Notes under the pieces: model-generated
The model's database searches: none
Told to the model about the DNA's origin: nothing
What the model saw: the letters and a program-made list of their open reading frames with translations, nothing else
Position numbers and translations under genes: made by a program
Part shown: piece after piece, positions 2,243 to 33,485 of the stretch
Layout: every line of letters begins with the position of its first letter
Numbering within the stretch: position 1 is the stretch's first letter
Assembly: GCA_036496425.1 (NCBI GenBank)
Contig: DASXLG010000038.1
Coordinates: forward strand, 1 to 39,783
DNA: 39,783 bases
Direction: 5' to 3'
Source of the DNA: Terriglobia bacterium
GTDB lineage: Bacteria > Acidobacteriota > Terriglobia > 20CM-2-55-15

Positions 2243-4105
2243 CTATTGGCCGGAGTCGCAAGCCTCGGTAATGCAGATCGATTCGAGCGTACGGCCCATC
2301 GGGGGCGCCGGCAGTCCCGCCGCGATCAGCAGTTTGCGAATGAGGGCTCCCGCATCCGGATGAGGGATGGCGGATTGCACGCCGACGCGGACGAGGCCGT
2401 CCGCGTAGTCGACGGGTTCCCAGGTGTGAACGGCGAGCTTGCCGCCGCGGTTGTCTGTATTGCCGTAATCACGGACGTCCAGTTTCGCGCCGTGGTCGTA
2501 CAGCATCTGAATCACAACAGGGCGGCCTTTGTGCGCAGCGCCGTGCAGGGCGACACGCCCGGTGTCGGCTTGAGCATTCGGATCGAGGCCAAGGTCCAAC
2601 AGCATCTTCACGGCTTCTTCGTTTTCCTTGACGCCCCACTCGTAGGTGATGCCTTCGACCCAGCCGATCCCGGCCGCGACCTGAAGAGGGGTAACGCCAA
2701 GAACCGTATTGATCTTCGGATCGGCGCCGTGGGCCAGAAGAAGTTTCATCAGCACGACGTCGCCGGATTGCGACGCCCGGAGGAACGCGGTCGCGCCGTC
2801 CTCACTGAGCCATTGATTCGTGAACACGGTGCGCGTCTCGGTACTGTCCTTCATTCGGGCGTTTACGTCCGCGCCTTTGTCGAGGAGCAGCTTGATGAAA
2901 TCGAGATGATCCATGTCCGGCTTGCGGACCGGATAATCGCCGCTCTCGATGTTGCGGTTGTCCGTCGCGATGTAAAGCGGAGTCCAGTTGCCTTTGTTGG
3001 CAAGATTCGGATTGGCGCCGTGATCGAGCAGGTAGGAGCCAAGCTTGTAGTACCGGTTTTGAGTCGCGACAAGCAGAGGGCTCCAGCCGTAACCCGACAC
3101 CTGGTTGATATCGACGCCGGCGGCAAGCAACGCTTTAACCGATTCGACGTCGTTGGACCGGGCAGCGTAGATCAACGGCGTTAATGCGCCGCCGTCGTTC
3201 GGAGTACCTCTGCCGCGTCCGCCTCCGCCGCCGACTGCTGCAGCTGCATCGTCTCCCTGGTCGTCACCGGCGGCAGCATCACCTGCGGCCGCTCCAGCAG
3301 CGGCCCCGCGGGCGCCGCCACGGCCTGCAGCCGCGCCGCGCTGACCTGCGCCGCCGCGTTGTCCCTGGGCAGCCTGCGGCGGTTGCGCATTTGCTCCAAC
3401 AACAGCTCCAGCGTCCTCGCGCGGAGGCAACGCGGTTCCAAATGCCTGGCCCGCAGCCAAAGCTGCACCTTGAGCGGCGACTTGTTTCCGCGGATCGTTC
3501 GCCTTGCCGAGCGCGGGTCCTTTTCCGCGAGGGGCGGGATTCGATCGCGCATTGATATCGGCGCCGCGCTGAATCAAAAATTGAACGGCCGGGGCATGCG
3601 CTTCATCCGCCGCCCACATGATCGGCGTTGTTCCGCGAGCCGTGTCTTTCGCGTTCAGATCCGCGCCGTGATCGATAAGGACCTTCATGGCCTCGACGTT
3701 GCCCGTGCGCGCTGCAGCCATCAACGGCGTTCTTCCCAATGGAAGGTGTTCATTAGGATCGGCGCCGGCAGCCAAAAGCGCGGAGATCATGGCGGCGTCG
3801 CCGTTGATGCCTGCAAGCCAAAGCGGAGTCGAACCCTCGCGGTTCGCCACCTTGACATTCGCGCCTGCGCGAATCAACAGGTCCGCCATTTCTTTATCGC
3901 TCTTGTAAGCGGCCCAATGCATGGCCGTGGCTCCATCGGGCTGCGGAGCGTTGACGTCTGCGTGTTGCTGGATCAGCGTCCGGATGGCAGCTTTATCGCC
4001 GCGCATGGCTGCATCTGCAACGTCGCTGCGTCCGGCGCCGATCATCGCTGCGGCGGATGCCAGCAGAACCAGTGCACAGACTCCCGTAACGTGTTTGAGG
4101 TTCAT
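2243..4105 (-). CDS. Secreted ankyrin-repeat protein
   Basis: 620 residues. A signal peptide (about 1-25, hydrophobic ALVLLASAAAMIGAG) is followed by two ankyrin blocks, about residues 28-186 (five repeats with typical G-TPL-AA and LL-GAD-N signatures) and 307-575 (about six), separated by an Ala/Gly/Arg/Gln-rich low-complexity linker at about 187-306. The C-terminus ends in PPMGRTLESICITEACDSG with two cysteines. Ankyrin repeats bind proteins; an exported copy is expected to act in the periplasm or outside. Its ATG overlaps the TAA of the DUF1552 gene (TAATG), implying translational coupling, and the terminator follows. It is the last gene of the operon, so it probably works with the DUF1592/DUF1552 proteins, but its partner is not known. 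Confidence 0.9.
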   Translation of the reverse strand: MNLKHVTGVCALVLLASAAAMIGAGRSDVADAAMRGDKAAIRTLIQQHADVNAPQPDGATAMHWAAYKSDKEMADLLIRAGANVKVANREGSTPLWLAGINGDAAMISALLAAGADPNEHLPLGRTPLMAAARTGNVEAMKVLIDHGADLNAKDTARGTTPIMWAADEAHAPAVQFLIQRGADINARSNPAPRGKGPALGKANDPRKQVAAQGAALAAGQAFGTALPPREDAGAVVGANAQPPQAAQGQRGGAGQRGAAAGRGGARGAAAGAAAGDAAAGDDQGDDAAAAVGGGGGRGRGTPNDGGALTPLIYAARSNDVESVKALLAAGVDINQVSGYGWSPLLVATQNRYYKLGSYLLDHGANPNLANKGNWTPLYIATDNRNIESGDYPVRKPDMDHLDFIKLLLDKGADVNARMKDSTETRTVFTNQWLSEDGATAFLRASQSGDVVLMKLLLAHGADPKINTVLGVTPLQVAAGIGWVEGITYEWGVKENEEAVKMLLDLGLDPNAQADTGRVALHGAAHKGRPVVIQMLYDHGAKLDVRDYGNTDNRGGKLAVHTWEPVDYADGLVRVGVQSAIPHPDAGALIRKLLIAAGLPAPPMGRTLESICITEACDSGQ

Positions 4106-14594: not shown

Positions 14595-15926
14595 TCACCT
14601 CATCTTCGTAATGCCGAGGGCTCGAATTCTCTTATGAAGGTTTGTCCGCTCGATCCCAAGCACTCGCGCGGCGCCGGACACATTCCAGTTCGTTTGCTCG
14701 AGAGCTTTCAGGATGCTTTCACGCTCGGCGGAATTGCGCGTTTCATGCAGGTTGGATGGCGCTTCACCCTCGGCTGCCAGGCGGATTTCCAAAGGGATAG
14801 AAGACGCCGTCAGACGATCTTCGGATGAAAGAATCGCCATTCTTTCGGTCGTATTCTTCAGTTCCCGCACATTTCCCGGCCAGGAATAGTTTTCGAAGAA
14901 TCCGAAGACTTCGTCTTCGATGGCTTTGGGCCTGAAATTGTTTCGAAGGCAAAACTCGTTGAGGAAGTAATGCGCCAGGTCCCGAATCTCCTCCGGCCGC
15001 TCACGCAATGCAGGGGCACGAATCGGGACCACGCTGAGGCGGTAGAACAAATCCTCGCGAAACTTATTCTGGCCGATGAGTTCCTGAAGATCGCGATTGG
15101 TCGCAGAAACGACGCGGACCGAAACGCGGAACGTCTGTTCGCCTCCGACACGCTGAAACTCTCCCTCCTGAAGGACGCGGAGCAGCTTTGCCTGCGACCC
15201 CTCGTGAAGGTCGCCGACCTCATCGAGAAAGATGGTCCCCCCGTCGGCCAGTTCGAATTTGCCGCGCCGGGCAGCAACGGCGCCGGTGAAGGCGCCCTTT
15301 TCATGCCCGAACAGTTCGCTCTCAAGCAATTCAGCCGGTATCGCGGCGCAATTTACTTTTACGAACGGCCCGGCCGCAAACGGGCTCTCGCGATGAATGT
15401 GTTCCGCCAGCAGCTCTTTTCCGGTGCCGGATTCACCGCTCAGCAAAACACGGGCATCCGATCTGGCGACAAGCGTGGCCTGTTCGATCGCCTGCCTCAG
15501 CGCGGGGCTGGAGCCGATCATTTTCGGTCCTTCCCCGACCATCTCGCGATAGCGCTCGTTCTCGCGCTTCAGACTCGCCTGTTCGAGCGCGTTTTTCAGA
15601 ACGATGAGAACCTTATCGCGCGACAAAGGCTTCTCGAGAAAATCGAATGCGCCCGCGCGCAGGGCCTGCACGGCATCGGCGATCGTCCCGTGACCCGAAA
15701 TCATGATGGCGGGAACATGCAGCAGCGGCAGCAGGCCGATTCCGCTTCCGTCGGGCAACCGGACATCGATCAGGCACGCGTCAGGCCGATATTTACTCAA
15801 GCGCGCCCGAAACTCGGCGGCGTTCGCGCAGACCAGGACGCCATAACCCTCGCCTTCAAGAATCATCTGCAGCGATCTCCCGATGTTCGGCTCATCGTCG
15901 ACGACAAGAATCCGTTTAGCCGGCAC
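14595..15926 (-). CDS. Sigma-54-dependent response regulator (NtrX/NtrC-like)
   Basis: 443 residues from a GTG at 15926 that overlaps the TAG of the kinase gene (TAGTG). Receiver domain 1-120 with Asp10/Asp11, phospho-acceptor Asp54 and Lys99; AAA+ domain about 135-375 with Walker A GESGTGKE (164-171), the sigma-54 contact loop GAFTGA (211-216) and Walker B IFLDEVGD (232-239); a Fis-type DNA-binding helix-turn-helix at about 400-440 ([23 protein letters not shown]). All parts needed to activate a sigma-54 promoter on phosphorylation are present. Partner is the NtrY-like kinase immediately upstream. Target genes are not visible. Confidence 0.95.
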
Positions 15927-17305
15927 TATTCCGCCTTCGGCAGCACGACACGGAATGCCGCTCCGCCAAGTTCGCTTCGGACGTGAAGGATGTCGCCGCC
16001 ATTGAGCAACGCACTTTTGCGGGTGATGGAGAGCCCGAGGCCCATTCCACCCTTCTTGAAAGTGATTGTCGGTTCAAACAGAGAACGCATCGCCTCTTCG
16101 CTGAGTCCAGGACCCGAATCATGAATTTCGACGAAGACTTTACCATCGGCGGTCGTGGTTACGGCCAACACATGTCCCGCTTCGCCTACCGCCTCGGCCG
16201 CATTCTGCAGGAGGTTTGTCACGATACCTTTTACCTGATCTGCGTCCGCAAATGCGCGGGGAGCGCCCGCCGCCAGCCGGGTGTCGTGCGAAACGCCGGA
16301 ACGGCCGGGCTTGAGCAACGAGAGCCGCTCCATTACCAGCGCATTGATATCCAGAACTGACGGCCGCCGTTCCGGCTCACTCGAAAACTCGGAAAACGCC
16401 CGCACTCGCCGCTCAAGAGACTCGATCTCTTCGACAACGATCTGCACCGCGCGATCCATGAACTGCCTATCGGTCTCGGTCTGCCTGGCGGCGATTTCTT
16501 CCACCGTCAGACGAATCGGCGTCAGCGAATTCTTGAGTTCATGCGCCATTTTTCTCGCGAGAAGCTGCCAACTGGCAATCTGCGTCAGGTACACAAGCCG
16601 ATCGCGGCTCTGCTGCAGTTGCTCGGCCATGTTGTTGAATGCGCGGATGGCCTGTCCGGTTTCGTCGTTGCCTTTGGCCGTGAGGCGTACTTGAAGGTTT
16701 CCGGAAGCCAGGTCCGAGAGACCACCCGTCAGTTCCTGAATCGGCCGGCTGATTCGATGAGCGAGATAGATAAGAGACGCCAGCGCGAACAACCATACAG
16801 CGACGACAAGGACCAGGAGCGTATTGATCAAACCGCGCCGGAGATCTCGATTCTGGGCCTCGGTGACGGCTTCTCTCGCATTCCGATATTCGTCCGAAAG
16901 CTGTTGCATCCGGATCGAGCCCAGATCCCGGGAGTAGACCAGAACGCCGTTCGCACTACGAACCAGATAGTCGATGCGGTTGCCACCCTCCCCGGATTGA
17001 ACGAAGCGTTCGGGTTCTGCACTCTCCCAGAACTCCTGCACCGGCGGGGGCCAGTTCTGCATGGCACTCGTGACATAGCGAGTGGCGGGACTGCGGCCCG
17101 CGAGCGCATCTTCTTTAAGGTCCTGCCGCGCCTGCTGATAAAACTCACGGGCTGTCTGTTCGAGCGACTTTGAAAGCTGATCCAACTCATTCGTGGTGGT
17201 GTAGGCGAGGCTGCGGTCCAGTAAGGCGGTGGCAATCCAGAGCGTCGCAGCGAGCGGGACGACGGTGGCCGCGAGGAACGCGATAATGAGTCTTCTCTGA
17301 AGCAA
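15926..17305 (-). CDS. Membrane sensor histidine kinase, NtrY-like
   Basis: 459 residues from a TTG start at 17305. Membrane segments at about 7-28 and 158-182 bracket a periplasmic sensor of about 130 residues. A HAMP domain (about 183-235) leads to HisKA with His255 in ARKMAHELKNSLTPIR and HATPase_c with N-box NLLQNAAEAV (364-373), DSGPG (396-400), an F-box near 410 and GMGLGLS (420-426). The gene lies 20 bp after the DUF4390 gene and its stop overlaps the start of the response regulator. DUF4390-NtrY-NtrX order is known from betaproteobacteria. The signal sensed is unknown; its neighbours suggest an envelope or nutrient signal. Confidence 0.93.
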   Translation of the reverse strand: MLQRRLIIAFLAATVVPLAATLWIATALLDRSLAYTTTNELDQLSKSLEQTAREFYQQARQDLKEDALAGRSPATRYVTSAMQNWPPPVQEFWESAEPERFVQSGEGGNRIDYLVRSANGVLVYSRDLGSIRMQQLSDEYRNAREAVTEAQNRDLRRGLINTLLVLVVAVWLFALASLIYLAHRISRPIQELTGGLSDLASGNLQVRLTAKGNDETGQAIRAFNNMAEQLQQSRDRLVYLTQIASWQLLARKMAHELKNSLTPIRLTVEEIAARQTETDRQFMDRAVQIVVEEIESLERRVRAFSEFSSEPERRPSVLDINALVMERLSLLKPGRSGVSHDTRLAAGAPRAFADADQVKGIVTNLLQNAAEAVGEAGHVLAVTTTADGKVFVEIHDSGPGLSEEAMRSLFEPTITFKKGGMGLGLSITRKSALLNGGDILHVRSELGGAAFRVVLPKAE

Positions 17306-20765: not shown

Positions 20766-23700
20766 TCAGGCCTGAGACTCTCCTGGGGCAGGCGTGCGGA
20801 GCCGGTTCTTCGAGCCGAGGCGAATCCCGAGGCGGTCGAGATAAAGGTAGACAACGGGCGTCGTATACAACGTCAGCATCTGGCTGAAGATCAGGCCGCC
20901 GATAATCGCAACGCCCAGGGGACGCCGGAGTTCGGAACCTGTTCCTGTTCCGACGGCCAGGGGCAACGCTCCGAGGAGGGCCGCCATCGTGGTCATCATG
21001 ATGGGACGGAAGCGCAGGAGGCACGCCTGATGGATGGACTCGATCGAACTCCTGCCGTCATTTCTCTCCGCGGCGAGCGCGAAATCGATCATCAGGATGG
21101 CGTTCTTCTTGACGATCCCGATCAGCAGAATGATTCCGATCAGCGCCATGATGCTTAACTCGATTCGAAACAACAGCAGTGCGAGCAGCGCTCCCACGCC
21201 GGCGGACGGCAACGTGGAAAGGATGGTGAGCGGATGGATGAGGCTTTCATAGAGAACACCCAGCACAATATAGACAGCCAGCAAGGCAGCGGCGACGAGA
21301 AACGGCTCATTGGCGACGGACTCTTCGTAGGCCTGGGCCGTCCCGGTAAAACTTCCGGTTATCGTTCCCGGCATCCCGATTTCCAGTTCCGCCTGCCGAA
21401 CCTCACCGACGGCGTCTCCGAGGGCGTAACCCGGAAGCAGATTGAACGAGATGGTCGAGGACGGAAACTGTCCCTGGTGGCTGATCGACAACGGTGTGGT
21501 CGAGCGGTCATACCCGGCAAATGCGCTCAGCGGCGCCTGTCCACCGCCGCTTGCCGCGACATAGATGTATTTCAAGGCGTCCGGATTCTGTGAAAACTTC
21601 GGATCCACTTCCATGATGACGTGGTACTGGTTCAATCCCGTGTACATGGTCGATACCGGCCGTTGCCCGAACGCATCGTACAACGTGTTATCGATCGCCT
21701 GCTCGCTGATGCCGAGACGGGCGGCCGTTGAACGATCAAAATTCAGCGCGAGCTCGAGCCCGCTGTTCTGCTGATCGCTGTTCACATCCGCAAGGCCGGG
21801 CAGGGTTTTCAATTTGGCGTAAACCTTCGGTGTCCACTTGGTGAGAGCTTTCAGATCGTCGCTCTTGAGGGTGTACTGGTACTCCGCGTTCGCGGCCCGG
21901 CCGCCCACACGCACATCCTGGACTGCCTGGAGATAGAGCGTGGCACCCGGAATCTTCGACAGTTGCCGCCGCAATCTGCCAATGATCTGATCGGCGCTGG
22001 CCTTGCGTTTATCGAGGTCCTTCAACGAAACGAACATGCGGCCGGTGTTTGCCGTGCCGCCTCCACCCGTGAACGCGATCACATCTTCAACGGCCGGGTC
22101 CTTGCCTACTGCAACGGCGAATTCTCTGAGCTTCCCGCTCATGGTCTGAAAGGAAGTGTCCTGATCGGCCTGGATATTTCCCGTGAGGCGGCCGGTGTCC
22201 TCTTCCGGGAAAAAGCCCTTCGGCACGACGAAGTACAGGTAGACGGTGAATGCTATCGTTCCCAGCGTCACCAGAAGCATCAATGCCTGATGGCGCAAAA
22301 CCCACCCGAGCGTCGTCTCATAGAAGTCCAGTATCCATTGAAAGCCGCGCTCGCTGAGGCGGTAAGCGCGGCCGTGGCGGATTTCACTTTCAGGCCGGAG
22401 CAGGCGCGCACACATCATGGGTGTAGTGGTGAGTGAAACGAGCAACGACACGCCGATCGCAACGGAGAGCGTCACGGCAAATTCGCGGAACAGGCGGCCG
22501 ACGATTCCCCCCATCAGCAGGATCGGAATGAATACCGCGATAAGCGACAGACTGATGGACAGAACTGTAAAGCCGATTTCCTTCGCCCCTGTCAGCGCGG
22601 CCTGAAGCGGTGTCTCACCCTTCTCGAGATACCGCGTGATGTTCTCGATGACGACGATCGCATCGTCGACGACGAAACCGGTCGCGATTGCCAGCGCCAT
22701 GAGCGACAGGTTGTCCAGGCTATACCCCGCGAGGTACATGACACTGAAGGTACCCACGAGCGACACGGGCACCGCGACACTTGGAATGAGAGTTGTCCTG
22801 AAATTGCGGAGAAAGACGAATACGACGAGCACGACCAGAATGATGGACAACCCCAACGCGATCTCGACATCGTGTACGGATTCCCGGATCGTGATCGTCC
22901 GGTCGAGCACGACAGACATATGAATCGCCGGAGGTATCGACCCCTGGAGCGTCGGTATCAGACTGCGGACGCGGTCTACAGTCGAAATAATGTTCGCGCC
23001 GGGCTGCCGGAAGATGATGATCGGAATTGCCGGTTGGCCATTGACGAGACCGAGCGTGCGAATGTCTTCCACGGAATCCGTGACGTTCGCCACCTGTGAG
23101 AGCGGGACCGCAGCTCCATTCCTGTATGCAATCACGAGCGGCTGGTATTCGCTCGCTTTCAGGAGCTGATCGGTCGCGCCGACCTGCCAGGTGCGTCCTT
23201 CATTCTGGAAATTCCCCTTTGGCGCATTCGCATTGGCATTGGTGAGCGCGGTCCGGATGTTTTCCAGCCCGAGTCCGGCGTTGTTCAACAGCGTGGGGTT
23301 CACCTCAACCCGCACGGCAGGCAACGCGCCTCCTCCGACGATTACCTGCCCGACGCCTTCGATCTGCGAAAGTTTCTGCTGAAGGATCGACGAAGCGGCA
23401 TCGTAAATGCGTCCACGGTCGTAGGTATCCGCCGTAAGCGACAGAATCAGGATCGGCGCATCCGCCGGATTGACCTTGCGATACCTGGGATTATTCGGAA
23501 GATTGGCCGGCAATTGGCTTCGCGCTGCGTTGATTGCGGCCTGAACATCGCGGGCGGCCGCATCGATGTTCCGGCTCAGATCGAATTGCAGGACGATGCT
23601 CGCCGTACCGAGGTTGCTGGATGAGGTCATTTCGTTAACGCCGGCAATTCGGCCGAAAAACCGTTCCAGCGGCGTGGCGACCGAAGACGCCATCGTCTCG

Positions 23701-23867
23701 GGATTTGCGCCCGGCAGCGACGCAGAAACCTGGATCGTCGGAAACTCCACCTGGGGCAACGGAGAAACCGGTAACTGGGTGTACGCGAGCGCGCCGGCAA
23801 ACGCGACCGCCGCAGTGAGCAGCGTGGTAGCGATCGGCCGATGGATGAATGGCGCGGAGATGCTCAC
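20766..23867 (-). CDS. mdtC: RND multidrug efflux pump subunit, MdtC-like
   Basis: 1033 residues, the normal size for the family. The N-terminus [38 protein letters not shown] and the stretch [35 protein letters not shown] follow MdtC closely. Twelve membrane segments in two halves, each half with a large periplasmic loop. Proton-relay residues are seen: Asp-Asp in [16 protein letters not shown] (TM4) and Lys in [15 protein letters not shown] (TM10). MdtB and MdtC form a hetero-trimer that pumps drugs and bile-salt-like compounds. The ATG overlaps the TGA of the MdtB-like gene (ATGA). Last gene of the operon; no outer-membrane TolC-like gene follows. Confidence 0.92.
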
Positions 23868-26800
23868 GCAGCCTCTGGATGATCCGGAGAGATTTCCGCA
23901 TGGCCGCCGTCCGGCTGATGCGGCTTCCTTCCGCCGAATCGAACCGCCAAGCGGTCGAAAGCCAGATAAATGACGGGTGTCGTAAACAACGTCAGCAGCT
24001 GGCTGACGAGTAATCCGCCGATAATCGCGATTCCCAGTGGCCGCCGCAGCTCGGCGCCTGTCCCGCCTCCGAACGCAAGCGGAATACCGGCGAATAAAGC
24101 CGCCATCGTCGTCATCATGATCGGCCGGAAGCGCAGCAGGCTGGCCTGGTAGATCGCCTCTTCGGGAGGTTTTCCTTCGTTGCGCTCCGCATCGAGCGCG
24201 AAGTCGATCATCATGATTCCATTTTTCTTGACGATGCCGATCAGCAGGATGATTCCGATCAGCGCAATCACATCCATCTCCTGTCCAAAAAGAAGCAACG
24301 CCAGCAGGGCGCCGACTCCCGCCGACGGCAGCGTGGACAGAATCGTGATCGGGTGAATATAGCTCTCGTACAACACGCCCAGCACGATGTAGACGGTGAT
24401 AAGAGCGGCCAGAATCAGCGTCGTTTCATTTGTCAGCGACGTCTTGAATGCTTCCGCGGTGCCTTGGAAACTGCCCGTCATGCCGGCCGGCAGGTTCATA
24501 TCCTTGATCGCTTCATCGACCTGGCCGACCGCTTCACCCAGCGAAACGCGAGGCGCAAGATTGAATGAAAGCGTGACAGCCGGAAACTGCCCCTGCCGGT
24601 TCAGCGCCAGAGGCACGGCCTGGCGTTCCAGACGCGTGAATGCGCTGAGCGGAACTGCCGCCACCGGGGCGGCCCGCGGCGCAGTGACCGAGGACGTCGG
24701 CGTACGCGACGCGCCGGGTGCTCCCGTAGAGCCGCTCGTGCCGGTTGTACTCGTCGTGTTGGCCGTGCTTGTGGGTCCAGAGCCGGCCGAGCCGATGCCT
24801 ATATTCGTGGTTATGGACGGAACAGGCCGGACATAGATGTTGGAAAGATCCTCCGGCGCCTGCTGAAACTGCGACGCGGTCTCCAGGACCACACGGTACT
24901 GATTCAGCTGCGTGAACATCGTCGAAACCTGCCGCTGTCCGAAAGCGTCGTACAGGGTGTCGTCTATCATCTGCGGCGTGATGCCGAAGCGTGATGCCGT
25001 GTTCCGGTCGATGACGAGTCTCGCCTGCAGCCCCCGGTTCAGCTGGTCGGTTGCAACGTCACGCAATTCCGGCATCGACTGAAGCTTGCCGACGATTTTC
25101 GGCACCCATTGGTCCAGCTCATTCATGTCCGGATCCTCGAGGCTGTACTGGTACCGCGTGCGGCTCACCCGGTTTTCCACCGTCAGATCCTGAATCGGCT
25201 GCATGTACAGGTGGATTCCTTCAACCTTCGAAAGTTCCTGTTGCAGCCGGGGAATGAGGTTGACGGCGTAATCTTTTCTATCACTCAGCGATTTGAGGTT
25301 GATCTGGATCGTTCCGCTGTTCAGCGTGGTGTTCGTCCCATCGACTCCGATGAACGACGACAGGCTCTCGACCGCCGGATCCTGAAGCAACGCGCGCGCC
25401 AGAGCCTGCTGCCGCTGCGCCATCGCGTCGAAGGAGACGCTCTCCTCGGCTTCGGAAATTCCGAGAATCACGCCGGTGTCCTGGACAGGGAAAAATCCTT
25501 TGGGGATCACCAGATACAGGAGAACGGTCAGCACGAGCGTGCCCGCGGCCACCAGCAGAGTCAGGACTTGATGGTCCAGCGCCCAACGCAGCGTTCGCCC
25601 GTAATAGGCAATAATCGATTCGAACGCATGCTCGGTCTTCTGATAGAACCAGCTCTGCTCCGCTTCCGGTTTGTGACGTAAAAGTCTCGCGCTCATCATC
25701 GGCGTCAGCGTCAAGGACACCACCGCGGAAATCAGGATGGTGATGCTCAGCGTCACGGCGAATTCCCGAAAGAGCCGGCCCACGACATCCGCCATGAACA
25801 GCAGCGGAATCAGGACGGCGATCAACGACACCGTCAGCGAAATGATCGTGAAACCGATTTGCTCGGAACCCTTTAGAGCGGAATCCAGCGGCTGATCGCC
25901 TGCCTCGACATAGCGCGCGATGTTTTCGATCATCACGATGGCGTCATCGACGACAAACCCAGTCGCGATCGTCATGGCCATGAGCGTGAGGTTGTTCAGG
26001 CTGTAACCGAGCAGATACATCACACCGAACGTACCGACAAGCGACACGGGCACGGCGATGCTCGGAATGACGGTCCCGGCCAATGTGCGCAGGAAGATAA
26101 AAATCACGAACACAACCAGCAGGATGGTCAGTATCAATTCGAACTGAACATCTTTCACAGAGGCGCGGATCGTATTGGTCCGGTCCGTGAGAATCGCAAT
26201 GTCGATCGATGACGGAAGGGTGTTTTTAAGCTGCGGAAGCAACGCCTTGACCCGATCGACGACCTCGATAATGTTCGTGCCGGGCTGCCTCTGAATATTC
26301 AAAATGATGGCGGGAGTCGTATTCATCCACGCCGCCTGCTTCATGTTCTCGACGCCGTCGGTGACCGTAGCGACATCGGACAAAACCACCGGCGCGCCGT
26401 TGCGGAATGCAACGATGAGCGGCCGGTAGTCCGCGCTGGACAGAAGCTGGTCGTTTCCGGAAATCGTATACGCCTGCTTCGCTCCGTCGAGATTGCCTTT
26501 TGCCTGATTCACATTGGCCGCAACGATCGCCGAGCGGAGATCCTCCAGGCTCAGCGAATAGCGCGAGAGAGCCGTCGGATTGGCCTCAATGCGGACGGCG
26601 GGCTTCTGTCCGCCCGAGATGCTGACCAGACCGACGCCGGAGAGCTGCGAAATCTTCTGGGCGAGCCGGGTATCGGCGAAATCCTCGACATTCGAAAGCG
26701 GCAACGTTTTCGAGGTCAGCGCCAGTGTGATCACGGGGGCATCCGCCGGATTGATCTTGCTGTAGACCGGGGGGTTCGGCAGATCTCTCGGAAGAAAATT

Positions 26801-27148
26801 CGATCCTGCGTTGATCGCAGCCTGAACTTCCTGTTCAGCCACGTCGATACTGAGATCGAGGGCGAACTGGAGCGTGATGATCGAACTCCCGCCCGAGCTC
26901 GAAGAAGTCATTTGATTCAGCCCGGGAACCTGGCCGAACTGGCGCTCGAGCGGTGCTGTGACGGATGAAGCCATCACGTCGGGGCCGGCGCCGGGATAAA
27001 ACGTGACGACCTGAATCGTCGGATACTCCACCTCGGGAAGCGCGGAAACCGGCAACTGCCGGTAACCTGCAATTCCCGCGAGCAGAATCGCGGCCATCAA
27101 AAGCGATGTCGCGATCGGCCGGAGGATAAAGATCCGCGAAACGTTCAT
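23864..27148 (-). CDS. mdtB: RND multidrug efflux pump subunit, MdtB-like, with a low-complexity insert
   Basis: 1094 residues, about 50 longer than typical MdtB. The N-terminus [39 protein letters not shown] and [25 protein letters not shown] are characteristic. Proton-relay Asp-Asp in [17 protein letters not shown] and Lys in [15 protein letters not shown] are intact. The extra length lies at about residues 780-830 (bases about 24655-24805), a Thr/Ser/Gly/Ala/Pro-rich stretch in the second periplasmic loop, between IYVRPVPS and VPLSAF. This would sit in the porter or docking region and is not usual for the family. Overlaps its neighbours by ATGA at both ends. Confidence 0.93.
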
Positions 27149-28425: not shown

Positions 28426-29367
28426 GTGCGCTTGAAGCTCGTTCTACTGGGTTTCTTCGCTTTTTATCTGGCGGTCTCGGCGCAGGAAACGGTAAGCCCC
28501 GTGAGACTCAAACCCGGGCCCGTGGAGCATGCACTCTCCGTCAACGTCGACCGGGTGAACGTTCTGTTCACCGTATCGGGTAAAGGCGGCAAACTCGTCA
28601 CTCACCTTACAAAGGATGATTTCAAAGTCTTCGAAGACGGAAACCCGCAAGACATTTCGAATTTCAGCCGTGAAAGTGATCTGCCGCTGAACATCGGCCT
28701 GCTGGTGGATACGAGCGGGAGCGTCTGGGGCAAGCTTCGATTCGAGCGGGAGGCGGCCACAAAGTTTTTTTATTCCAATCTTCGGCGCGGGCGCGACAAA
28801 GCGTTCGTGATGGCTTTTGATTCACGCGCCGTTGTCCTTCAGGACTTCACGGATAATCCGGCAACGTTGCAGCACGCAGTTGAACACATGATCGCCGGCG
28901 GATCGACGGCGCTGTTCGACGCCGTCGCCGAAGCTGCCAGGCAGAAACTTGGAAGACAGTATGGCAAACACGTCCTGATCGTCCTCAGCGACGGCCTCGA
29001 TAACTCCAGTCACACCGACCTGGCAGGGACGCTGGAAGCCGCGCAGAAGAATGACGTCGTGATCTATACGATCAGCACAAACCGCACGGAAGGTCTTCAG
29101 CCGGAGGCTCCCGCGCGTGGAGACGCCAATCTCAGCCGGCTGGCCGAGGAAACCGGCGGATATGCGCTGTTTCCGAAACGGCTTGAAGATCTCACCGAGG
29201 CATTTCACCGCATCGGAGAGGATTTACGCGCCCAATACAGCCTCGCCTACGGCCCGACGAATTCGAGCCGCGACGGAACATATCGCATGATCGATGTCGT
29301 CCCCTCGCACAAGGGTTACACCGTGCGTTGCCGGCACGGCTACTTCGCGCCCGGAGTACACTCTTAA
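28426..29367 (+). CDS. VWFA-related acidobacterial secreted protein (TIGR03436 type)
   Basis: 313 residues from GTG 28426. A signal peptide (RLKLVLLGFFAFYLAVSAQ) is followed by a small beta-domain (VNVLFTVSGKGGKLVTHLTKDDFKVFEDGNPQDISNF, about 44-80) and a von Willebrand factor A domain (about 87-280). The metal-ion site DTSGS (95-99) is complete, with a later Thr in GGSTALFDA and Asp in LSDGLDNS. This two-part layout is the VWFA-related family named from Acidobacteria, where it is present in many copies; the function is unknown, and adhesion or protein binding at the surface is inferred. Ends four bases before ywbE. Confidence 0.93.
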   Translation: MRLKLVLLGFFAFYLAVSAQETVSPVRLKPGPVEHALSVNVDRVNVLFTVSGKGGKLVTHLTKDDFKVFEDGNPQDISNFSRESDLPLNIGLLVDTSGSVWGKLRFEREAATKFFYSNLRRGRDKAFVMAFDSRAVVLQDFTDNPATLQHAVEHMIAGGSTALFDAVAEAARQKLGRQYGKHVLIVLSDGLDNSSHTDLAGTLEAAQKNDVVIYTISTNRTEGLQPEAPARGDANLSRLAEETGGYALFPKRLEDLTEAFHRIGEDLRAQYSLAYGPTNSSRDGTYRMIDVVPSHKGYTVRCRHGYFAPGVHS

Positions 29368-30079: not shown

Positions 30080-30556
30080 CTAATCCCACTTTGCAATTCG
30101 AGAGGCTTTCAGCGTGCTGCCGCTGAGTACGCCGTGGATGGAGATCGTTTCGCCCGAATGGAAGTCTTCAAGACGAAGATTGTCGACGCCGTCCTGGAAG
30201 AGCGTGCTGTCGGTCGTGATGACCATGTATTCATTGGGAATCAAACCGTCCTGGACCGGTCTGACGGACGAATTTCTCGCGGCATGTCCCGGCAATAAGA
30301 CCGCGATGCCCGGCATTCGAACGGAAGGCACCCTGCCGGATATCCTCTGCCAGAGGCTTTCCTTGATCTCGGGCACAATATGCAGACTCTGACCTTCAGA
30401 GCCGCGAATTTTCAGTGTTCGGTTTTTCCCATCGATTCGTAAGATGCGGCCGGTTGTCGCAATCGGCATCGGCGGTGGATCCTGATTGAACATGTCCGCT
30501 GCAAAACCCGAAACCGTCATCAGCATAAGGATAGCGATGCAGAGGGTTCGATTCAT
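30080..30556 (-). CDS. Small secreted protein of unknown function
   Basis: 158 residues with a clear signal peptide (RTLCIAILMLMTVSGFAAD, cleaved near FAA-D). The mature part is beta-rich with two repeated strand patterns: TTGRILRIDGKNRTLKIRGSEGQSL (34-58) and, near the end, NLRLEDFHSGETISIHGVLSGSTLKASRIAKWD. This resembles OB-fold-like DUF5666 or similar periplasmic proteins, but I do not recognise a family with confidence. Single gene, with the repeat at 30593-30626 upstream. GC content is lower than in neighbouring genes. Length and composition support a real gene. Confidence 0.65.
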   Translation of the reverse strand: MNRTLCIAILMLMTVSGFAADMFNQDPPPMPIATTGRILRIDGKNRTLKIRGSEGQSLHIVPEIKESLWQRISGRVPSVRMPGIAVLLPGHAARNSSVRPVQDGLIPNEYMVITTDSTLFQDGVDNLRLEDFHSGETISIHGVLSGSTLKASRIAKWD

Positions 30557-30592
30557 GGCAAGGGATTATACCCTCAAATTGGGGGGAAGTTT

Positions 30593-30626
30593 ATTGGAGG
30601 TTGCATCATTGGAGGTTTCTGCATTT
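30593..30626. repeat. Dispersed intergenic repeat, copy B
   Basis: ATTGGAGGTT occurs twice, at 30593-30602 and 30608-30617 (15-bp period). Bases 30600-30626 match 10027-10053 at 24 of 27 positions. ATTGGAGGTT is also found in each arm of the hairpin at 34571-34656. Here only one arm is present, so this looks like a half or decayed copy. Confidence 0.7.
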
Positions 30627-30755
30627 CATACAATTTTGACTGCAAACCGAGCCAAAACGCCTGCCGCTCAGGGCTGATTTCCGACTGTTCGCCCGAAAAC
30701 CGGCTAGTTGTGAGAAGCCCGTCCCGCAGACTTGGGGCTGGGAGGTTCCACGACC

Positions 30756-31643
30756 ATGCGCTTTCGATCGTTATTGGTTGCAGCAGCCGTTCTATTGATC
30801 TGGAGTATTTCCGCTTTCGCTCAGGTGCCTCAATTCGAAGTGGCGTCTATCCGGCCGTCAGGACCGATCGGCCAGATCAATACCGGTATCAACGCGGGCG
30901 TTCATATCGATGGAGCGCAAGTTCGGTTTACGTTGTTCAATCTCATTTCGTATATCGGCTATGCGTACGACGTTCCTCCATATCAAGTCCATGGGCTGGA
31001 TTGGATGGGATCGGCCTGGTTCGACATTTCCGCTAAAATGCCGGACGGCGCCGACACAAAGCAGGTCCGCGCAATGCTGGGCTCGCTGCTGGAGGAGCGC
31101 TTCGGGTTGAAGGCACATCGTGAAAGCCGGGAGTTTCCCGTATATGCGCTCGAAGTCGCCAGGACTGGACTCAAAATGAATGAACTGGCGCCCGATCCTG
31201 CTCTCGACCTCGCCAGGCAAGGCGGTGAAAATATATCGATGAAGATCCAGGGGAATGGCGGCACTTATGACCTTGGCAATGGCGCATATTTTGCGGTCGG
31301 CGAACAAGGATTCGAAGGGAAGAAGCTCACGATGCGGACGTTGTGTAAGGTCATCCGGCCGTTCCTCGATCGCGACGTCGTCGATATGACGAACCTGAAG
31401 GGCACGTATGATTTCCAGCTACCCGTCACATCGGAGGACCGTATTGCAATGATGATACGTTCGGCCGTCAATGCAGGAATGGGCGCGACACTCCCTCCGC
31501 AAATGCTGCGGTTGCTGGACAGCGCATCGGGAGATTCTTTTGCGGAAGCGCTGCAAAAGCTTGGGCTCGTGCTTGTGCCGCGGAAGGCGCCGTTGGAGGT
31601 CGTCGTCGTCGATTCGCTGCAAAAGACACCGACAGAGAATTGA
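30756..31643 (+). CDS. TIGR03435 family secreted protein
   Basis: 295 residues from ATG 30756 (GGAGG lies about 11 bases upstream). A signal peptide (FRSLLVAAAVLLIWSISAFAQ) is followed by the hallmark PQFEVASIRPSGP (23-36). Later conserved features: MGSAWFDISAKMPDGADTKQVRAMLGSLLEERFGLKAHRESREFPVYALEVARTGLKMN (about 90-150) and DMTNLKGTYDFQL near 210. TIGR03435 is a secreted family expanded in Acidobacteria (Solibacter), function unknown. Its stop is one base from the start of the LytS-type kinase gene, so the three genes 30756-33485 form one transcript. A role as a periplasmic partner of the kinase is inferred from context. Confidence 0.93.
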   Translation: MRFRSLLVAAAVLLIWSISAFAQVPQFEVASIRPSGPIGQINTGINAGVHIDGAQVRFTLFNLISYIGYAYDVPPYQVHGLDWMGSAWFDISAKMPDGADTKQVRAMLGSLLEERFGLKAHRESREFPVYALEVARTGLKMNELAPDPALDLARQGGENISMKIQGNGGTYDLGNGAYFAVGEQGFEGKKLTMRTLCKVIRPFLDRDVVDMTNLKGTYDFQLPVTSEDRIAMMIRSAVNAGMGATLPPQMLRLLDSASGDSFAEALQKLGLVLVPRKAPLEVVVVDSLQKTPTEN

Positions 31644-31644
31644 G

Positions 31645-32748
31645 ATGAAGCGCATTATCTTCCTGAAACCGTTCTTTTGGCCGCGCATCAGCACACTCAG
31701 AGAACTTCCGCTCGCGCTGCTGCAGATTGCGATCTACGGAGCTCTTTCGGGGCCTATCGTCGGTTACTTTTTCATCTGGCTGATGAGGCCGCCAGGAATC
31801 TGGCATGTCACGCTCCCCCCGGGCGCGTTTGTCGGGTGGCTCGTGTACGCAAGCCGGTCCGCCATCCTGTACGTCGGCATTTACTATCTGACGTTGGGCG
31901 TCTCGATCGACTACAGCCGGCGCCGGTACCAACCCCGTGGGCTCAAGCTCGGTTTGCTCTACGGCGCCGGCTGGGTTGTGGCCTTGTTCCTGACGGCATG
32001 GATCACGCCGGGCACCGAACAATTCCGCCAGAAATTCCTGGCGATGTTTGATGGAGATTCTTTACGCGTCGTCGTTGTAATGACGATTCTTTTCGCGCTC
32101 ATCCGCTTGTTCCGGAGCAGGCTCGAGAAAGCCAGGGCCGAGAAGGCCGCAGCCGAAGCACTCTCTCAGGTCAAAGCACTTCAGGCGCAGATCAATCCCC
32201 ACTTCTTTTTCAATACGCTGAATACGATCTATGCGCTGATCCCTGTAGATCCGCCGGCGGCGCAGCGGACCGTCGCTCTCCTTGCGGACATGAGCCGGCA
32301 TGCGTTCGCAACCGCCCAGGCGGATCTGATTCCGCTTGCGCAGGAACTGGATTTTGTGAAGGCTTATCTGGAGATTGAAAAAGTACGGTTCGGGCAACGA
32401 CTGCAGTGTGAGATGCCCGGCACGGAGACGGCCGCAGGCATTCATGTGCCGGCCCTTATTGTTCAGCCGTTGATCGAAAATGCCATCCGGCATGGAATCT
32501 CGCGGCGTATGGACGGCGGTAAAGTTGCCGTGGAGATCGACCGAAAGGGCGATTCTTTCTCGGTAACCGTCAGGAACCAGTGTGACGCTTCGCCGGAACG
32601 TTCCGCGTTGTCATTCTTTCGTGAAGGCCACGCGCTCGAAAACATCCGCGAGCGTCTGCGCATCCATTATCGCGATAAGGCGCTGCTCACCATTTCGTTT
32701 CCCAGCGTCGATGCGGTTGCCGTCACGATTACAGGCCCTCTCCAATGA
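31645..32748 (+). CDS. Membrane sensor histidine kinase, LytS/YehU type
   Basis: 367 residues from ATG 31645, one base after the TIGR03435 stop. Four hydrophobic segments are seen (about 22-48, 60-85, 103-121, 140-155), followed by a helical linker and the His_kinase (PF06580) domain. The phospho-acceptor is His186 in QINPHFFFNTLNTIYALI; the ATP-binding N-box is PLIENAIRHG (275-284), and ALENIRERL near 325 follows. There is no separate periplasmic sensor domain, so it may sense through its membrane part or an external partner. Stop overlaps the regulator start (ATGA). Confidence 0.93.
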   Translation: MKRIIFLKPFFWPRISTLRELPLALLQIAIYGALSGPIVGYFFIWLMRPPGIWHVTLPPGAFVGWLVYASRSAILYVGIYYLTLGVSIDYSRRRYQPRGLKLGLLYGAGWVVALFLTAWITPGTEQFRQKFLAMFDGDSLRVVVVMTILFALIRLFRSRLEKARAEKAAAEALSQVKALQAQINPHFFFNTLNTIYALIPVDPPAAQRTVALLADMSRHAFATAQADLIPLAQELDFVKAYLEIEKVRFGQRLQCEMPGTETAAGIHVPALIVQPLIENAIRHGISRRMDGGKVAVEIDRKGDSFSVTVRNQCDASPERSALSFFREGHALENIRERLRIHYRDKALLTISFPSVDAVAVTITGPLQ

Positions 32749-33485
32749 TTCGATCTCTGGTTGTAGACGATGAAAAAGTTGCCCGCGAACATATGGTCCG
32801 CCTGCTGGCGGACTATTCCGATGTGACCACCGTCGGCACGGCTTCCAACGGTGTGGAAGCTTTGCAGGCGATCTCGGACTCCACTCCGGATGTCCTATTT
32901 CTCGACATCGAAATGCCGGAAATGAACGGGTTCGACGTGCTTGCCCAGCTGCGGACCGCTCCGCTTGTCGTTTTCGCGACAGCCTACGACGAGTATGCCG
33001 TTCAGGCATTCGAAGCCAACGCGATCGACTATCTCCTGAAACCAGTGCAGCCATCCCGCCTGGCCAGGACGATCGAAAAGGTACGAGTCACGCTCGACAA
33101 ACCACCAAAAGACTATGAATCCCTGCTCCGGCGCGCCCTGTCGCAAATCCGGCCCGGACCGCCTGCCAAGCTTGCGGCCCGGCGAGGCAGACGGATCGTG
33201 TTGCTGTCCCCGAGGGAGATTCTTTACGCGCGGATCGAAGACGATATTGTGTTCTTTTATTCGCAAAGCGACCGGTTCGCAACCGACCGTACCATCACAG
33301 AGCTCGACGAACTCCTGGCGCCGGCAGGATTCTGCCGGATCAGCCGTTCTACCATCGTGAACCTCGCTTATGCGCGGGAGCTCTTGCCTTGGCTCAACGG
33401 CACGTGGAAGTTGAAACTGGCCAACAATACCGAACTGGACGTCAGCCGTGAGCGGGCTCGCGACCTCAAGTCGCGAATCGGATAA
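32745..33485 (+). CDS. LytTR-type response regulator
   Basis: 246 residues. Receiver domain 1-120 with Asp8/Asp9, phospho-acceptor Asp54 in FLDIEMPEMNGFDV, Thr79 and Lys99 in YLLKPV. The LytTR DNA-binding domain is at about 145-243, with GRRIVLLSPREILYARIEDDIVFFYS and ISRSTIVNLAYARELLPWLNGTWKLKL. LytTR proteins bind paired direct repeats about 10 bp apart. Cognate of the LytS-type kinase that it overlaps by four bases. Targets are not visible here, though auto-control of the TIGR03435 gene is plausible. Confidence 0.95.
   Translation: MIRSLVVDDEKVAREHMVRLLADYSDVTTVGTASNGVEALQAISDSTPDVLFLDIEMPEMNGFDVLAQLRTAPLVVFATAYDEYAVQAFEANAIDYLLKPVQPSRLARTIEKVRVTLDKPPKDYESLLRRALSQIRPGPPAKLAARRGRRIVLLSPREILYARIEDDIVFFYSQSDRFATDRTITELDELLAPAGFCRISRSTIVNLAYARELLPWLNGTWKLKLANNTELDVSRERARDLKSRIG

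Follow-up and report, generated by a model that had tools for sequence, protein, structure and literature searches.

A TIGR03435 protein–PF06580 kinase–LytTR regulator gene trio in a Terriglobia genome: a real yet rare arrangement

The gene family TIGR03435/DUF3738 has multiplied heavily in Terriglobia, and a literature search found no paper naming TIGR03435 or DUF3738. One member of this family lies at the head of a compact gene trio with a sensor kinase and a LytTR response regulator. This locus raises the question of whether the first product serves the kinase as a sensor or ligand and whether such partnerships account for the expansion of the family, as an earlier note on this DNA had proposed. 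The window, i.e. the whole analysed stretch of 39,783 nucleotides, is contig C38; the genome comprises 6.16 Mb in 407 contigs and is 95% complete. The features of the trio are as follows.

30557–30755, plus strand: presumed promoter region, intergenic, with no LytTR-spaced direct repeat
30593–30617, plus strand: exact 10-bp direct repeat of ATTGGAGGTT, period 15 bp (P ~0.0025)
30756–31643, plus strand: TIGR03435/DUF3738 protein, 295 aa, predicted to be secreted (TIGR03435 and PF12543 profile matches)
31305–31616, plus strand: C-terminal half of DUF3738, residues 184–287; in a relative, the homologous half has an STN/secretin-N0-like predicted fold
31645–32748, plus strand: PF06580 (His_kinase) family sensor kinase, 367 aa (Pfam, hydropathy)
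32167–32403, plus strand: His_kinase domain with the conserved H box QINPHFFFNTLN (Pfam, residues 175–253)
32745–33485, plus strand: response regulator with receiver and LytTR domains, 246 aa (Pfam)
33192–33479, plus strand: LytTR DNA-binding domain (Pfam)

The coordinates and family profiles agreed with the claimed gene order (TIGR03435/DUF3738, PF06580 kinase, LytTR regulator) and with the claimed 1-bp and 4-bp junctions. The TIGR03435 gene begins with ATG at 30756 and ends with TGA at 31641–31643; after one base, the kinase gene begins with ATG at 31645, and its stop codon shares the ATGA at 32745–32748 with the start codon of the regulator gene. Since a small divergent gene begins at 30556, the interval 30557–30755 was taken as the presumed promoter region. 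Judged by this operon structure, the trio looks like one transcription unit whose genes are probably co-transcribed.

The first product scored 227 bits against the TIGR03435 profile (curated cut-off, 40) and 142 bits against DUF3738, PF12543 (cut-off, 22; E 3e-41). Hydropathy analysis indicated a signal-peptide-like N-terminal segment at residues 6–24. The protein is thus a TIGR03435 member that is predicted to be secreted, as had been claimed. The second product matched PF06580 (His_kinase) with an E-value of 3.8e-26. Hydropathy predicted four transmembrane (TM) helices joined by short loops, and no outside domain of notable size, which bears out the claim that the kinase has no extracytoplasmic sensor domain. 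The earlier note had called it a LytS kinase. The 5TMR-LYT input domain is given as the mark of LytS-like kinases (PMC10653868), and Pfam detected no such domain, PF06580 being the sole match; the label therefore holds in the sense of "PF06580 family" and not in the strict sense. The third product matched both PF00072 and PF04397 above the cut-offs and is a LytTR response regulator.

The frequency of the pairing was examined in this genome and in others. This genome holds approximately 87 TIGR03435 matches, including many fragments, whereas PF06580 kinases and LytTR domains number just five each. A TIGR03435 gene directly precedes two of these kinases, those of the window and of C390. With 5,600 genes assumed, the chance of at least two such cases among five kinases was P 0.001–0.002, and that of the second one, given that the window was ascertained, was about 0.05. 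Among the 59 nearest codirectional ORFs to TIGR03435 in this genome, many of which are spurious, the only repeated families were His_kinase, methyltransferase, and CarboxypepD_reg (two each). Next to the approximately 77 PF06580 kinases of 20 other TIGR03435-bearing Terriglobia genomes, one loose neighbour was found (L173), where about 0.5 was expected upstream. We rejected this pairing as chance; there, the kinase gene precedes an enolase gene, and a gap of 40 bp leads to the TIGR03435 copy. A PF06580 kinase lies within 1.5 kb of three of the 192 distinct DUF3738 domains, and only two domains, both in this genome (window and C390), form a kinase–regulator trio.

The surroundings of the relatives gave the same picture. 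No PF06580 kinase was found beside the closest TIGR03435 homologues at 40 loci from whole genomes, nor beside TIGR03435 at 29 loci from named genomes, and a C390-type pairing was absent from all loci examined in other genomes. The nearest homologue in the genus (G002, 53% identity) is followed by an ORF on the opposite strand. In two complete genomes with 33 and 49 TIGR03435 matches, one response regulator lay within 600 bp of TIGR03435, as against 2.1 expected by a circular-shift test. The earlier note had implied that TIGR03435 genes adjoin LytS/LytTR genes and had itself named chance-level adjacency in other genomes as the observation that would count against it; as pairing elsewhere is at chance level, the general claim fails. 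Its corollary, that kinase pairing could explain the expansion, falls with the zero count at the approximately 70 loci of closest homologues and the lack of enrichment of response regulators. Therefore, we concluded that the TIGR03435–kinase–LytTR trio is a real yet rare arrangement: partnership with a kinase is a use of the family that is rare and was acquired separately, most TIGR03435 genes stand alone, and the partnership is not the cause of the expansion.

Response regulators of other types were also seen next to the family. A histidine kinase, an OmpR-type response regulator, and TIGR03435 follow one another in one direction in two genomes of one genus (L156 and L160), with a third case suggested by coordinates, and a Reg_prop kinase, a NarL-type response regulator, and TIGR03435 do so in one further genome (L150). 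These orders are suggestive only.

The second trio, at C390, has the same gene order as that of the window: a TIGR03435 gene, a 4-bp gap, a kinase gene, and an overlapping LytTR regulator gene. Between the two trios, identity is 30% for the TIGR03435 proteins and 35% over the core for the kinases, which belong to different clades. Relatives of the C390 kinase are preceded by small secreted-looking proteins with CHxCHTGK-like C-terminal motifs (L194, L188, and L218), LiaF-family proteins lie immediately upstream of other, short PF06580 kinases at L042, L043, L075, and C125, and no tightly linked partner precedes the relatives of the window kinase. Related kinases thus have different upstream genes or none, and the upstream slot is variable.

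We then compared the upstream regions of the two trios. In the window promoter region, the best 11-mer match at a period of 19–24 was 7/11 (P 0.94). The ATTGGAGGTT repeat is the sole exact 10-mer repeat at period 15 within the window, and a spacing of 15 bp is unlike that of LytTR sites. The C390 trio is preceded by three repeats arranged as CGGTTTTTCGG-N11-CGGTTCGTCGG-N10-CGTTTCGTCGG, with periods of 22 and 21 bp (L036, approximately 2595–2649, minus strand). They resemble the triple LytTR operators, 9-bp direct repeats with 10–13 bp spacers, described previously (PMC11347149). Triplets of this quality occur very roughly once per 30 kb in the sampled loci, with overlapping hits interpreted, and the operator match is therefore suggestive. 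The check named in the earlier note, for LytTR direct repeats upstream of TIGR03435 genes, thus gave LytTR-like repeats at C390 and none in the window promoter.

If the family is not tied to kinases, what might its members do? DUF3738 was found in, or next to, membrane signalling proteins of two further kinds. Those of this genome that end in DUF3738 are as follows.

L284, L285, L010, and L287:834–2522: FecR–DUF3738 fusions, C-terminal DUF3738
L272, L273, and L287:4569–6320: M56–DUF3738 fusions, C-terminal DUF3738

An ECF sigma gene immediately precedes each of the four genes for FecR-domain proteins, and a blaI-type gene each of the three genes for M56/BlaR1 proteases. By the chosen start codons, six of the seven junctions are 4-bp overlaps, and the seventh (L285) is a longer overlap. 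M56–DUF3738 proteins were also present at nine other Terriglobia loci tested. Split forms occur as well. At C244 (L288, 384–3331), an ECF sigma gene and a FecR gene without DUF3738 are followed 24 bp later by a free TIGR03435 gene, whose domain grouped as sister to a FecR-fused DUF3738 in a FastTree tree (support, 0.98); some tips of this tree labelled by locus mislabel neighbours (L114_2810 and L115_577), and the C244 pair is unaffected. At C257, two TIGR03435 genes lie approximately 120 bp ahead of a blaI–M56 pair whose M56 protein has no DUF3738. From its place in these proteins, DUF3738 is probably a signalling part outside the cell, and the coexistence of fused and split forms is the main reason for supposing that TIGR03435 proteins not fused to a transmembrane regulator can still act for one.

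Structure prediction was consistent with such a role. The model of the window TIGR03435 protein (pLDDT 88.6, pTM 0.81) as a whole had no match in the PDB (best Foldseek E 0.29; VIA Z 3.0), a result that is compatible with a known fold. For a relative, the 99-residue C-terminal half of DUF3738 was predicted with a beta-alpha-beta-beta-alpha-beta order (pLDDT 69.7). The best PDB match of this half-domain model was a FecR-type anti-sigma factor (Z 6.2 over 66 residues), followed by GspD, FpvA, FoxA, PupA, PupR, and FecA (Z 5.8 to 3.7). Most structural matches were STN or secretin-N0 domains; the phage-tail proteins 3d37, 3cdd, and 3gs9 also matched (Z 4.0–4.7). A Z below 8 may reflect a common arrangement, so that the STN likeness, though in line with the FecR fusions, is a lead and no proof. 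Pfam showed no STN sequence match in DUF3738, and searching PDB sequences with an HMM profile of the half-domain gave no convincing hit. Profile comparison of the two halves of DUF3738 gave a weak signal of internal duplication (single-comparison P 0.004, probability 8%). We consider the C-terminal half to be predicted as STN/secretin-N0-like, with moderate model confidence. The idea of a secreted sensor or ligand that serves a membrane transducer thus gains indirect support from the FecR and M56 fusions, the split FecR partner, and the predicted fold.

Here, we propose, giving it slightly less than an even chance, that the TIGR03435 protein is a periplasmic signalling subunit that was recruited by a four-TM kinase rarely and separately, twice in this genome. 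Once exported, the protein would work in the periplasm as a signalling component made up of predicted STN-like modules. It may bind a putative cue or an outer-membrane partner and would touch the short outside loops of the kinase, presumably in direct physical contact. The kinase would then phosphorylate the LytTR regulator, which in this form would change transcription of putative target genes. This reading is supported by the tight junctions, by the same order in the C390 trio with its low identities, by the fused and split forms of DUF3738 and the STN-type matches of the half-domain model, by the lack of an outside sensor domain in the kinase itself, and by the LytTR-like repeats at C390. 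Against it stand the lack of conservation of the pairing, with close TIGR03435 homologues having no neighbouring kinase; the small number of tight cases, only two and one of them ascertained; the lack of a LytTR repeat in the window; and the modest Z of the STN-like fold, which comes from a model of a relative with a pLDDT of 69.7 and has no STN sequence match behind it.

A broader version, which we regard as possible if rather doubtful, treats DUF3738 as a periplasmic signalling module, made up of tandem STN-like units, that can be exchanged between BlaR1-type proteases, FecR anti-sigma factors, and PF06580 kinases and serves them either in cis or in trans. On this view, the stand-alone TIGR03435 paralogues, dozens in each genome, would supply a range of carriers for periplasmic signals. 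If a signalling role is common to the three regulator types, TIGR03435/DUF3738 would gain a first testable function, and it would point to how soil Terriglobia sense what lies outside their membrane.

The trio might instead be an accident of position, in which an amplified TIGR03435 copy landed upstream of a kinase–regulator pair and is merely transcribed by read-through, functionally unconnected to it. The abundance of matches and fragments in this genome, the chance-level pairing outside it, and the absence of a kinase neighbour in close homologues all fit such an accident. We nevertheless think it somewhat unlikely, because two trios of the same order with 1–4 bp junctions occur among just five kinases (P 0.001–0.002 with both counted, about 0.05 given ascertainment) and because DUF3738 is fused to other transmembrane regulators. 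A functional link of another kind would exist if the kinase sensed within its own membrane helices and the TIGR03435 protein were its output or a co-regulated envelope protein. BtsS, which binds pyruvate inside its TM bundle, is a precedent (PMC10653868); relatives of the window kinase exist without TIGR03435, and the LytTR-like repeats at C390 precede TIGR03435 itself, as is consistent with a regulated gene. However, the window kinase differs from BtsS in having four TM helices and no 5TMR-LYT, and in other transducers DUF3738 forms the extracytoplasmic end; we judge this explanation improbable.

One more partner role was considered. LiaF is thought to restrain LiaS, and the TIGR03435 protein could likewise be an accessory protein that inhibits the kinase; LiaF-family genes in the same slot of PF06580 kinases at the four loci above would fit this role. 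Among the DUF3738 sequence matches, however, none was to LiaF, and the clade of the window kinase differs from that of the LiaF-linked kinases; we regard this role as the least probable of those considered.

Regarding known systems, the window operon shares with BtsS/BtsR and LytS/LytTR a PF06580 kinase without a periplasmic sensor domain and a LytTR response regulator, and differs from them in the four predicted TM helices of the kinase as against 5TMR-LYT (seven TM helices in BtsS) and in its first gene, which encodes a secreted DUF3738 protein. The FecI–FecR–FecA and PupB–PupR systems resemble the FecR–DUF3738 fusions behind ECF sigma genes in this genome, and the signalling domains of FecA, PupA, and PupR are STN domains, to which one DUF3738 half is similar in a predicted fold of moderate confidence. 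Cell-surface signalling of the FecIRA type was rejected for the window operon, whose output is a kinase and a LytTR regulator instead of an ECF sigma factor, FecR, and a TonB receptor, none of the last being identified. In the M56–DUF3738 proteins, DUF3738 takes the place of the outside sensor domain of BlaR1 (BlaR1/BlaI); in contrast, the window operon has no protease and encodes DUF3738 as a polypeptide of its own. LytTR Regulatory Systems are likewise small operons of a LytTR regulator and a membrane protein, with direct repeats that could serve autoregulation (PMC6193735), such repeats being seen here at C390 only. As they combine the regulator with a membrane inhibitor and have no kinase, this class was also rejected: the receiver domain and histidine kinase of the window system make it a phosphorelay.

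Some further genes were observed around the family. Approximately ten TIGR03435 domains or genes lie in tandem at L244 (2623–10849). In the window, a gene for a VWA protein of TIGR03436, another acidobacterial family, lies at 28426–29367, approximately 1.4 kb upstream of the operon. On the minus strand, a HAMP histidine kinase and a sigma-54 type response regulator form a pair unrelated to the trio (14595–17305), and two adjoining AcrB-family (RND) transporter genes overlap by 4 bp (20766–27148).
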